In this document: positions 10,464-35,532 of the stretch, one piece after another
Layout of the letters: each line of letters opens with the position of its first letter
Numbering within the stretch: the first letter of the stretch is position 1
Source of the DNA: Haemophilus parainfluenzae
GTDB taxonomy: Bacteria > Pseudomonadota > Gammaproteobacteria > Enterobacterales > Pasteurellaceae
Reading direction: 5' to 3'
Length of the DNA stretch: 64,000 nucleotides
Assembly (NCBI RefSeq): GCF_900638025.1
Contig: NZ_LR134481.1
Coordinates: forward strand, 1,178,001 to 1,242,000
The notes under the pieces: model-generated
Database searches by the model: none
Seen by the model: only the letters and a program-made list of their open reading frames with translations
Told to the model about the DNA's origin: nothing
Made by a program: the position numbers and the translations under genes

Positions 10464-11774
10464 TTATTCTTTTGTTTCTTCCACTTTATCTTCTGGAAGC
10501 ACGAGGTTAAGGATTAAGGCAAGTAATGAGCCTACGGTAATGCCTGAACCGAGCACTTCTTTGAAAAAGTGCGGTAATTTATCAAGCAATTCTGGACGAG
10601 TTGTCACGGCTAAGCCACAGCCAATGGAAATGGCAATAATTAAACCATTGCGTTTGCTACGTGCGACTTTGTCTAACATTTGGATACCCGCAGCGATAAT
10701 CATCGCGAACATCATTAAGCCTGCACCACCTAATACAGGCAATGGAATTGAAACAATTAATGCGCCAAATACAGGGAATAAGCCCGCTAGCGCTAGAAGT
10801 ACACCGGTTAGCGCAACCACGTGACGGCTTGCCACGCCCGTTAGTGAAATGACACCAATGTTTTGAGAGAATGAAGAGAATGGTGTGGTGGACATAATGG
10901 CAGCTAAAGCTGAACCTAAACCATCGGCTAGAACCCCGCCACGTAAATGTTTGCCGGTAATTTCTGTTTGGGTTGCATTACCTAGTGCTAAGAAGTTACC
11001 GCTTGATTCAACGATCGTCACTAAATAGGCAATGGACATGCCGATAATACCTGAAATAGGGAAGGCTAAACCAAAGTGTAGCGGTTGTGGAATTGCGAAA
11101 GTTTGCGCTTGTTTTACGCCTTCAAAGCTCACCCAGCCCATGGCTAAACAAACGAGATAGCCTGTCATCATCCCAATAACGATCGCTGCGGCGGAGAAAA
11201 TGCCTTTGCCCCATTGCACGAGTGCTACAACGATGATTAATACAAAGCTCGCCATCATTAAATTTTCTGGCGTCGCATAATTCGCATCACCACGTTGACC
11301 ACCCGCAAACCAGTCAACCGCAACAGGAATGAGGCTTAAGCCGATCATCATGACGACAGTCCCTGTCACAAGCGGTGGGAACAATTTGCGAATATACGGC
11401 ATAAAGAAACTGCCGATAATCATCACTAAGGAACCAATGAGAGAGGAACCTAATATACCGGCGATGCCATATTCACTGAAACCAATGGCCAGTGCAGCGG
11501 CAACGAAAGTAAAACTGGTTCCCATCACACTAGGCAAACGAATGCCTATAGGCCCCAGGCCTTTGCATTGAATAACGGTGACCACGCCAGAAATCAAGAG
11601 TGCAGCATTCACTAGCGTAATGGTATCTTCGGTAGGTAATTTTAAGACGTTACCAATGACCAATGGTACGGCAATAATCCCCCCGAGTGCGGCAAGTAAA
11701 TGTTGTGCCGCAAGGAGTAAACTCAATCCGAAAGGTGGTTTGTCTTCCACGGTATAAAGTAGATTGTTATTCAT
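10464..11774 (-). CDS. NCS2-family nucleobase permease, probably purine (xanthine/urate type)
   Basis: The 436-residue protein has 12-14 hydrophobic segments and the NCS2 landmarks: a QH motif in the first helix (LAAQHLLAALGG), GNFLALG with the neighbouring ESS, and the signature region containing FSSFSQNIGVISLTGV. The F-SQN form of the last motif is typical of xanthine or urate carriers (XanQ, UapA) rather than the uracil branch. A near-perfect PurR operator overlaps its predicted -35 box, which independently supports a purine substrate. The start follows AGGGAA. I cannot say which purine is carried. Confidence 0.85.
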   Translation of the reverse strand: MNNNLLYTVEDKPPFGLSLLLAAQHLLAALGGIIAVPLVIGNVLKLPTEDTITLVNAALLISGVVTVIQCKGLGPIGIRLPSVMGTSFTFVAAALAIGFSEYGIAGILGSSLIGSLVMIIGSFFMPYIRKLFPPLVTGTVVMMIGLSLIPVAVDWFAGGQRGDANYATPENLMMASFVLIIVVALVQWGKGIFSAAAIVIGMMTGYLVCLAMGWVSFEGVKQAQTFAIPQPLHFGLAFPISGIIGMSIAYLVTIVESSGNFLALGNATQTEITGKHLRGGVLADGLGSALAAIMSTTPFSSFSQNIGVISLTGVASRHVVALTGVLLALAGLFPVFGALIVSIPLPVLGGAGLMMFAMIIAAGIQMLDKVARSKRNGLIIAISIGCGLAVTTRPELLDKLPHFFKEVLGSGITVGSLLALILNLVLPEDKVEETKE

Positions 11775-33346: not shown

Positions 33347-33434
33347 TCTATTACCTTATGAAAAATTTGGTGCATTTTAGCATAAACTTTCAAAATAAGA
33401 TAAAATGGCGCAAATTTTTAATAGGATTATCATC

Positions 33435-34712
33435 ATGAAAACAGCAGAAAATTTAACCGCACTTTTAAAATCTCAAGAGCAAACATTGCGTGATGCAGTC
33501 AGTTTTGCGATTGAAACTGCACAGAAAGCGGGAGCCACCGCTGAAGTTGGTGTGACAAAAGTGAGTGGTTTATCAGTTTCAACTCGTCTGCAAGAGATTG
33601 AAAATGTTGAATTTACTAATGATGGGGCATTAGGTATTTCTGTTTATTTAGGTCAACAAAAAGGCAATGCATCCACCTCAGATTTAAGCGAAGAAGCCAT
33701 TAAAAATACTGTTGAAGCAGCGCTTGCTATTGCAAAATATACCTCGCCGGATGATTGCACAGGGCTAGCGGATAAAGAACTAATGGCTTTTGAAGTGCCT
33801 GATTTAGCGCTTTATCATGAGGCAAGTATCGATGTCGAACAGGCTACAAAATTAGCTTTAGAAGCTGAAAAATCAGCGTTGGAATACGATGATAAAATTG
33901 TGAATAGTAACGGCGCAAGTTTTAATTCGTATACCGGTGTTCGTGTTTATGGTAATACACATGGCATGCTACAAAGTTACTTATCTAGTCGTTATTCTTT
34001 ATCTTGTTCGGTGATTGGTGGCGAGCTAGATCAACTTGAAAATGACTACGAATATACGGTTTCACGTGAGTTTGATGCTCTTTCTTCAGCGGATTGGGTA
34101 GGACAGAATTGTGCAAAAAAAGTGATTGCGCGTTTAAATCCACAAAAATTAACGACACGTGAAGTACCCGTGATTTTCTTAAATGATGTGGCAACAGGAT
34201 TAATCTCTCATTTAACGGGAGCGATTAGTGGCGGCAGCTTATATCGTCAATCCAGTTTCTTGCTCGATCATCTTGGAAAACAAGTGTTGCCAGATTGGTT
34301 CCAAATTAGTGAGCGTCCGCATTTGTTAAAACGTTTAGCCTCCACACCTTTTGACAGCGAAGGAGTTCGTACACAGGATCTTGAAATTATTCAAGATGGC
34401 GTATTGCAAACCTATTTGCTCACCAGTTACAGCGGTAGAAAAATGGGCATGCAAAGTACCGGTCATGCTGGCGGTATCCATAACTGGCTCGTGAAACCAA
34501 ATTTAACGGGCGGATTGACCGCACTTTTACGTCAAATGGGCACCGGTTTATTGGTGACAGATGTCATGGGGCAAGGCGTAAATATTGTGACGGGAGATTA
34601 TTCCCGTGGCGCAGCAGGCTTCTGGGTGGAGAATGGCGAGATTCAATATCCAGTTGCTGAAATTACGATTGCTGGCCAATTGCAGGATATGTTAAAAATA
34701 TTGTGGCAGTAG
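33435..34712 (+). CDS. pmbA: Metalloprotease PmbA/TldE (C-terminus frameshifted)
   Basis: PmbA is the TldE subunit of the TldD/TldE protease that acts on microcin precursors and other unfolded peptides. The frame of 425 residues from 33435 (AGGATT ribosome-binding site) is well conserved until EITIAGQLQDML, then ends early at KILWQ. The missing tail is present in the next frame (34699-34789). One A too few in the run AAAAA at 34694-34698 explains it: with six A residues the protein would read through as KNIVAVADDIEHRSN and end at 34789. An earlier in-frame ATG at 33405 is less likely. Either a real frameshift or a sequencing error. Confidence 0.9.
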   Translation: MKTAENLTALLKSQEQTLRDAVSFAIETAQKAGATAEVGVTKVSGLSVSTRLQEIENVEFTNDGALGISVYLGQQKGNASTSDLSEEAIKNTVEAALAIAKYTSPDDCTGLADKELMAFEVPDLALYHEASIDVEQATKLALEAEKSALEYDDKIVNSNGASFNSYTGVRVYGNTHGMLQSYLSSRYSLSCSVIGGELDQLENDYEYTVSREFDALSSADWVGQNCAKKVIARLNPQKLTTREVPVIFLNDVATGLISHLTGAISGGSLYRQSSFLLDHLGKQVLPDWFQISERPHLLKRLASTPFDSEGVRTQDLEIIQDGVLQTYLLTSYSGRKMGMQSTGHAGGIHNWLVKPNLTGGLTALLRQMGTGLLVTDVMGQGVNIVTGDYSRGAAGFWVENGEIQYPVAEITIAGQLQDMLKILWQ

Positions 34713-34789
34713 CAGATGATATTGAACATCGATCTAATATCCAAACAGGTTCAATCTTGTTAGATAAGATGAAAATTTCAGGAAATTAA
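34699..34789 (+). pseudogene. pmbA: Out-of-frame C-terminal tail of pmbA
   Basis: Read one frame over from the annotated gene, this stretch gives NIVAVADDIEHRSNIQTGSI followed by LLDKMKISGN and a TAA at 34787-34789. This is the conserved PmbA C-terminus (compare the NIQTGSVLL-type tail of other TldE proteins). It has no start of its own. It therefore belongs to the upstream gene. Confidence 0.85.
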
Positions 34790-34802
34790 TGAACTCCTTA
34801 AA

Positions 34803-34847
34803 AATGATAATAATTCTTATTGACATGTAATTTCTTTCTGCTATTAT
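34803..34847 (+). promoter_or_regulatory. Strong promoter with overlapping Fur-like box
   Basis: TTGACA (34820-34825), 16 bases, then TATTAT (34842-34847) form a near-consensus sigma-70 promoter. The 19-base window 34803-34821 matches the Fur consensus GATAATGATAATCATTATC at 13 positions and overlaps the first two bases of the -35 box. No protein start lies between this promoter and the terminator at 34919-34952. Confidence 0.65.
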
Positions 34848-34852
34848 ACGCA

Positions 34853-34952
34853 CATCTGTTTAGCAGCGATTGCAGATTGCTCCAACAGGTAGAGTAGAAA
34901 GTAAATTCGTTAGGGTTAAAAAGGCTGAAGGTTTAAACTTCAGCCTTTTTTA
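34853..34952 (+). ncRNA. Candidate Fur-regulated small RNA of about 100 bases
   Basis: A strong promoter with a Fur-like box is followed about 75 bases later by a clear Rho-independent terminator (AAGGCTGAAG / CTTCAGCCTT, then six T). The stretch between contains no start codon with a ribosome-binding site and no sensible reading frame. The layout matches RyhB-type iron-responsive small RNAs, and H. influenzae is reported to have a Fur-controlled small RNA called HrrF. I cannot tell by eye whether this is its orthologue. An alternative is a leader attenuator of hpt, 40 bases downstream. Confidence 0.6.
34919..34952 (+). terminator. Terminator of the candidate small RNA
   Basis: AAGGCTGAAG at 34921-34930 pairs with CTTCAGCCTT at 34938-34947 around a seven-base loop, ending in six T residues. 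Confidence 0.85.
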
Positions 34953-34992
34953 TTGTAGAATACGCAAACGATTAGATTAAAAAGGAAAGACC

Positions 34993-35532
34993 ATGAAAAA
35001 ACACCACGTTGATATTATGATTTCAGAAGCGGATGTCCGTAGTCGCATAGCTGAACTTGGCGAGGAAATTACGCATTTTTATCAACAAAAAGCCATTGAT
35101 AAACTGATTATTGTTGGGCTTTTACGTGGTTCATTTATGTTTATGGCCGATCTGGTGCGTGAATTAAAATTACCGGTAGAAGTAGAGTTTATGACGACTT
35201 CAAGTTATGGTAGCGGGATGACGAGTAATCACGATGTGAAAATTACGAAAGATCTTGAAGGTGATATTCGTAATGAACACGTGCTAATTGTTGAGGATAT
35301 TATTGATACAGGTTATACCCTCGAAAAAGTACGTGGCATTTTAAATTTACGCGATCCTGCAAGCTTGGCGATTTGTACCTTATTAGATAAACCTTCTCGC
35401 CGAGAAGTGGAAGTACCGGTTGAATGGATTGGTTTTTCTATTCCGGATGAATTTGTTGTCGGATATGGTATTGATTACGCGCAACGTTATCGTAATCTAG
35501 GCTATATTGGCAAAGTGGTTATAGACGAATAA
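34993..35532 (+). CDS. hpt: Hypoxanthine phosphoribosyltransferase
   Basis: Hpt salvages hypoxanthine (and guanine) to nucleotides using PRPP. The 179-residue protein carries the PRPP-binding motif [14 protein letters not shown] near residue 97, the flexible-loop region [11 protein letters not shown] and the C-terminal [11 protein letters not shown], all standard for the family. AAGGA precedes the start. No PurR box is visible nearby, in contrast to the NCS2 permease at 10.5-11.8 kb. The gene stands alone between the small-RNA terminator and a palindrome shared with der. Confidence 0.95.

Follow-up and report, generated by a model that had tools for sequence, protein, structure and literature searches.

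The DNA between pmbA and hpt in Haemophilus parainfluenzae almost certainly encodes, at 34852-34951 of the plus strand, the orthologue of the small RNA HrrF under the control of Fur. The RNA itself is already known. The new part is a predicted pairing with the sodA mRNA, a testable prediction of moderate strength. All coordinates (Table 1) refer to the window, i.e., the whole stretch of 64,000 nucleotides that was analysed.

Table 1. Features of the hrrF locus and of a further pairing candidate
Feature	Position	Strand	Basis
pmbA, metalloprotease PmbA, upstream gene	33405..34789	+	NCBIfam
Fur-like box TGATAATAATTCTTA, 7-1-7 type, abutting -35	34805..34819	+	12/14 specified consensus bases and conservation
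Sigma-70-type promoter TTGACA-16-TATTAT, TG ahead of -10	34820..34847	+	11/12 bases in promoter scan
HrrF small RNA, about 100 nt	34852..34951	+	Rfam RF02728
5' hairpin of HrrF	34854..34890	+	minimum-energy fold and Rfam structure line
Predicted pairing segment CAGGTAGAGTA, fully complementary to sodA codons 3-6	34886..34896	+	11-mer genome search, fold
Conserved core, partly open	34889..34916	+	42-sequence alignment, HrrF loci, fold
Intrinsic terminator, 13-pair stem, 7-base loop	34918..34950	+	fold, Rfam
hpt, hypoxanthine phosphoribosyltransferase, 41 bases past the RNA	34993..35532	+	NCBIfam
Xanthine-permease-like gene (pbuX type, NCS2)	10467..11774	-	NCBIfam TIGR03173, over cut-off

Identity, promoter and fold of the RNA

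The Rfam model of HrrF, RF02728, is matched over its full length (positions 1-116 of 116) with 114.7 bits and an E value of 3.1e-20, the gathering score being 77 bits. A search with the same model finds a single copy in the genome, which consists of one contig of 2,062,405 bases. A sequence-only reading had guessed at an HrrF orthologue and had proposed the comparison with HrrF and Rfam as a check; the full-length match, the single copy and the location between pmbA and hpt, as published, bear the guess out. Its term "orphan" fails only in so far as the RNA is already catalogued. By the same match, a new, unnamed Fur RNA is ruled out. Other Rfam families yielded weak sub-threshold matches at the locus, e.g., CsrC with 19.8 bits versus 61, and were set aside.

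In H. influenzae 86-028NP, HrrF was found between pmbA and hpt as an RNA of about 97 nt (Santana et al. 2014, PMC4144887). Its level rises about 80-fold without Fur, and chelation induces it. RNA-seq, Northern blotting and box scrambling were applied to the locus in that work, a Fur pull-down was positive, and H. parainfluenzae is included in the legend of Figure 2. A homologous iron-regulated RNA is described for A. actinomycetemcomitans in PMC5156373, and expression of HrrF in an infection study with H. influenzae in PMC12306180. A term search of two Pasteurellaceae Hfq papers found no mention of HrrF. The present locus agrees with that of 86-028NP in its place between pmbA and hpt and in a start 63-65 bp past the pmbA stop, and with HrrF of H. 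influenzae in the Fur box over the promoter, the length of about 97-100 nt, the conserved core and the terminator. It differs in that there is no space for the second terminator of the long form, HrrF-L, hpt beginning 41 bases past the RNA.

The pmbA stop ends at 34789, and the start sites published for H. influenzae lie 63-65 bp after this stop (PMC4144887); the start of HrrF is therefore predicted at 34852-34854, with which the start of the Rfam match, 34852, agrees. The near-consensus promoter that had been read from the letters is confirmed with 11 of 12 consensus bases. Among the 6 promoter-like sites of a 1200-base scan (3.4 expected), it is the sole one to reach this score. For comparison between genomes, one HrrF locus per genome was taken from 70 of the 97 genomes that match RF02728. 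A TATAAT-like hexamer (at least 4/6 bases) is found at a suitable distance after the -35 in 70/70 of these loci, a count without chance control.

The Fur-like box had been placed at the -35; it abuts it. For scoring, the 7-1-7 Fur consensus and the 19-base E. coli Fur consensus were used. By itself the box is weak: the window holds 2 such sites versus 0.63 expected, and 13 of 100 shuffles reach 2; to the 19-base consensus it is no match within 3 mismatches. The 23-mer of box plus -35, however, is kept at 19/23 or better in 69/70 HrrF loci and at 17 in the remaining one (L046), 17 being also the score of the best shuffle. It is this conservation across HrrF loci that turns a weak single-site match into a convincing candidate operator. 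L046 (genome G045) lacks the usual box before the -35 but has a Fur-box-like stretch immediately past this element; apparently, the operator has been relocated.

That no reading frame lies within the transcript holds for ATG-started frames of at least 25 aa, none of which overlaps the RNA on the plus strand; it does not hold for TTG-started ones, of which two, of 25 and 36 aa, overlap it on that strand.

The segment 34853-34953 folds with -30.8 kcal/mol (z -4.06; 1/200 shuffles as good). The predicted layout is a 5' hairpin, then a partly open core, then the terminator. Within the core, 34891-34903 are predicted to be unpaired, and 34904-34917 to form a weak 5-pair hairpin. The clean intrinsic terminator had been recognised correctly: a 13-pair stem with a 7-base loop at 34918-34950 runs into T. 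In an alignment of 42 sequences, double changes that keep the pair occur at 8/9 of its consensus pairs; at one pair, 12/42 sequences show a break or gap. A consensus terminator scan did not list it; pairing of its A-tract with the T-tract may be the reason. The best-kept stretch of the alignment lies around TAGAGTAGAAAGTAAATTCGTTAGGG; over all columns, 17 are invariant and 18 nearly so. The 5' half of HrrF varies across loci in both length and sequence.

sodA as a predicted target

Codons 3-6 of sodA read TACTCTACCTG, a perfect 11-base complement of HrrF 34886-34896. In the genome this 11-mer occurs only twice, in sodA and opposite HrrF. The closest solved structures of the encoded enzyme are Mn superoxide dismutases. 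Pairing was measured as the duplex energy of the HrrF core with start regions, accessibility being ignored. A first comparison took a core of 28 bases, 56 genes of the window serving as background; only 1/56 pairs as well as or better than sodA. A longer core of 36 bases was chosen once sodA had already stood out. It was compared with 125 start regions of this genome, of which sodA is one and some were fetched for their resemblance to HrrF complements; here sodA has the lowest energy and the second-lowest z. The shuffle p value is 0.00025 (4000 shuffles).

The protein stretch YTLPE is common to most sodA genes, and the codons were therefore tested. They were counted in the 30 nearest sodA genes, of 138 genomes with sodA; these come from five genera, 11 from the own genus, and, being nearest relatives, are not independent. 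Of these genes, 29 have ACT at codon 4, 25 have CTA at codon 5 and 28 have CCT at codon 6. In the rest of the same genes, ACT makes up 42% of 228 Thr codons, CTA 3.0% of 564 Leu codons and CCT 19.5% of 195 Pro codons. When synonymous codons were drawn at random (3000 draws), the observed pairing was reached in at most 0.1% of the draws in 5/5 sodA genes, all picked among CTA carriers. A wider set of 70 sodA starts shows CTA at codon 5 in 40/59 genomes of genera with HrrF versus 1/11 of genera without.

In genomes in which HrrF was not found, the pairing is weaker. The mean duplex energy with sodA is -22.7 in 58 genomes with HrrF and -16.0 in 12 without a match; the consensus core was used where the set held no HrrF locus. 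A z of -2 or lower is reached in 38/58 of the former versus 1/12 of the latter, and this one is G125, an unmatched member of a genus that has HrrF. Averaged by genus, with G125 placed in its HrrF-positive genus, z is -1.81 (19 genera with HrrF) versus -0.68 (10 without), with a one-sided p of 0.02 that ignores kinship. The 20 of 58 HrrF-positive genomes that miss a z of -2 include G079 of the own genus and the Avibacterium-like g6; several single-genome genera also show weak sodA pairing despite HrrF.

A second site lies in the sodA leader. It begins at -32 in the own genus and at about -45 in a large part of the H. influenzae group (g19), i.e., it varies between genera. The ribosome-binding site lies between the two sites. 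The fold prediction places 34886-34890, 5 of the 11 pairing bases, in the outer stem of the 5' hairpin, and full pairing with sodA would therefore require the stem to open. The predicted stem thus weakens the case for pairing without excluding it; the six bases 34891-34896, which the model leaves open, could serve as its starting point.

The sequence-only reading had suggested sodA, fumarase or nrd mRNAs as partners to be searched for. For sodA, duplex energy, codon choice and the 11-base complement lend computational support. We see an even chance that HrrF pairs directly with the sodA mRNA through CAGGUAGAGUA (codons 3-6) plus the leader site, with a strength that would have been enough to shape synonymous codons in several genera. 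Such pairing is unreported for H. influenzae: sodA is not among the six RNA-seq targets there, nor is it named in the text of the paper (PMC4144887), and a search of the literature at hand found no paper covering both HrrF and sodA. An effect on translation only would go unseen by RNA-seq.

The effects of HrrF published for H. influenzae are a decrease of modABC and an increase of asnA, asnC and nrdB (PMC4144887). In the present genome, the modA, asnA, asnC and nrdB starts pair at background, with 28-49 of 56 background genes pairing equally well or better, and none of the four emerges as a direct target here. The genes modA, asnA and nrdB are present in 11/11 genomes of the genus. For asnA, z is negative in all 11, with p below 0.05 in only 2 (0.04 in G074, 0.03 in G079). 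The suggestion of nrd mRNAs fails for nrdB in this genome and finds support in 1/11 genus genomes, G079, with p 0.01. A pairing of modB with HrrF is predicted in the supplement of PMC4144887; here, p was 0.04-0.27 in 9/10 genomes in which the start was found, the tenth, with a probably misplaced start, gave 0.86, and modB was set aside because the pairing is weak. When this genome was searched for sites complementary to the core, G-U pairs being allowed, 12 and 26 were obtained, a count that takes in the HrrF site, versus 6 and 15 with a reversed-pattern control, and no clear target emerged.

The sole gene to beat sodA with the 28-base core is the xanthine-permease-like gene, which is second by energy with the 36-base core. 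Its start region pairs with HrrF at -23.7 kcal/mol (z -4.11) through two blocks of 10 bases that surround the start codon, and z is -2.2 to -4.4 in 11/11 genus genomes. Over the whole set, mean z is -1.12 in 44 genomes with HrrF, own genus included, versus -0.95 in 24 without a locus in the set, HrrF being present in some of these; of the 70 start regions, 2 were unreadable, and for 2 more (G010, G011) the reading began at an internal ATG. As a general target the permease was rejected, since its pairing is limited to the genus and genomes with HrrF and the others hardly differ. Together with hpt beside hrrF, it hints at a link to purine salvage.

Could the conserved core work by binding a protein instead of pairing with mRNAs? 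A near-invariant core next to very divergent 5' halves would suit such a role, as would the background-level pairing of modA, asnA, asnC and nrdB in this genome. The codon choice of sodA, however, tracks complementarity to HrrF, and much of the core is predicted to be unpaired and seed-like. We consider protein binding unlikely.

Distribution, neighbouring genes and relation to other small RNAs

At E 0.001 or better, RF02728 finds HrrF in 97/140 genomes and 27/43 genera of Pasteurellaceae, in 62 of the 140 genomes over the gathering cut-off, and in 11/11 genomes of the own genus. Our own covariance model of core plus terminator (R1) finds it in 96/140 genomes and 25/43 genera, the sequences used to build the model matching by construction; compared with RF02728, G132 is gained and G082 and G104 are lost. 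At these sensitivities, 16 (RF02728) or 18 (R1) of the 43 genera have no HrrF match. Among 14 control genomes, the Rfam search gave one sub-cut-off match in one run (B. subtilis) and 0/14 in the family run. An exact search also found the HrrF core in CABDVE010000001.1 (L300), a record whose title, probably by mistake, names Pseudomonas stutzeri.

The flanking genes had been named correctly: NCBIfam confirms pmbA and hpt. Of the 70 loci, 69 have pmbA upstream and 62 have hpt downstream; some of the misses may come from the short stretches fetched. In the present genome, the pmbA frame is broken near its 3' end (34693-34703, 34703-34789), in a stretch with an A run, and the C-terminal piece lies in another frame. 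Both pieces lie in a single frame in all 10 further genus genomes and, over all loci, in 68/69; the break may be either a sequencing error or real.

The proximity of hpt raises the possibility that HrrF serves hpt as a leader, either in addition or as its main role: polymerase would read through the terminator, and purine salvage would follow iron. The gap between the two is 41 bases here and 39-87 bases in 58 of the 62 loci with hpt, PMC4144887 reports a single start site in the pmbA-hpt interval, and ahead of hpt, which only the 41 bases 34952-34992 separate from HrrF, the best extra promoter match is weak (9/12). The permease-like pairing candidate at 10467-11774 likewise belongs to purine salvage. 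The terminator, however, is conserved; hpt is 165-997 bases off in 4 loci and was not found in 8/70; and the published effects concern distant genes, hpt missing from that table (PMC4144887). The iron-controlled promoter may feed hpt by read-through; as the main role of HrrF, or even a second one, a leader function appears improbable. As to the loci with displaced hpt, the gene is absent from the stretch in L003 and L004 and lies 165-997 bases from HrrF in L005, L006, L025 and L051. This suggests insertions between hrrF and hpt in these six, comparable to the one reported for H. aegyptius F3031 (PMC4144887).

RyhB of enterobacteria acts on sodB, the gene of an Fe superoxide dismutase, and PrrF and NrrF are its functional analogues. 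Like RyhB, the RNA described here is short, would be repressed by Fur, has unlinked targets and, by our prediction, has a superoxide dismutase mRNA among them. In contrast to the sodB product, the dismutase at issue here is nearest to Mn enzymes. The RNA had been called RyhB-type and iron-sparing. The Fur logic of this label is upheld, its family membership is not: a RyhB match is found neither at the gathering score in the window nor at E up to 1 in 34700-35000, the HrrF authors report no BLAST similarity, and HrrF of H. influenzae, unlike RyhB, does not need Hfq for its stability (PMC4144887). Nor does iron sparing fit well, since the same authors regard modABC as ill-fitting and nrdB as counterintuitive in this respect. 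On the Rfam and BLAST results, homology to RyhB is rejected; a true iron-sparing RNA of the RyhB family, as which the Fur box over the promoter, the length of about 100 nt, the terminator and the predicted pairing with a dismutase mRNA might be read, is highly improbable. The small RNAs JA01-JA04 of Aggregatibacter actinomycetemcomitans are also regulated by Fur and belong to the same bacterial family; the HrrF authors treat them as separate RNAs (PMC4144887). That promoter and hairpin arose by chance and give no transcript in this genome can practically be dismissed: a Fur box that by itself is near chance level would allow it, but the Rfam E value of 3.1e-20 and the conservation with synteny speak against it.

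Proposed mechanism and meaning

In the presence of iron, Fur bound over the -35 would block RNA polymerase. When iron is short, HrrF of about 100 nt would be made, end at its own terminator and accumulate. Its action would be in trans, and base pairing of the conserved core (34886-34916) is the likeliest means. The best candidate for a direct target is sodA, with its site in codons 3-6 and the more variable one in the leader. The two sites flank the ribosome-binding site, and lowered translation of SodA is therefore the simplest outcome; we infer both the direct pairing and its sign, repression, from sequence. To make less of an Mn enzyme under iron shortage is no obvious iron-sparing move.

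HrrF is a widely conserved Fur-regulated RNA of Pasteurellaceae, yet direct pairing evidence for its published targets is scant, and its discoverers had difficulty in fitting these targets to iron sparing (PMC4144887). The sodA site offers a concrete, partly conserved and testable candidate for a direct target. If the pairing is true, iron shortage would be tied to superoxide defence by an RNA unrelated to RyhB, and a dismutase target would have been reached independently of RyhB. HrrF and sodA would then provide a test case for the convergence of RNAs unrelated to RyhB on superoxide dismutase mRNAs.
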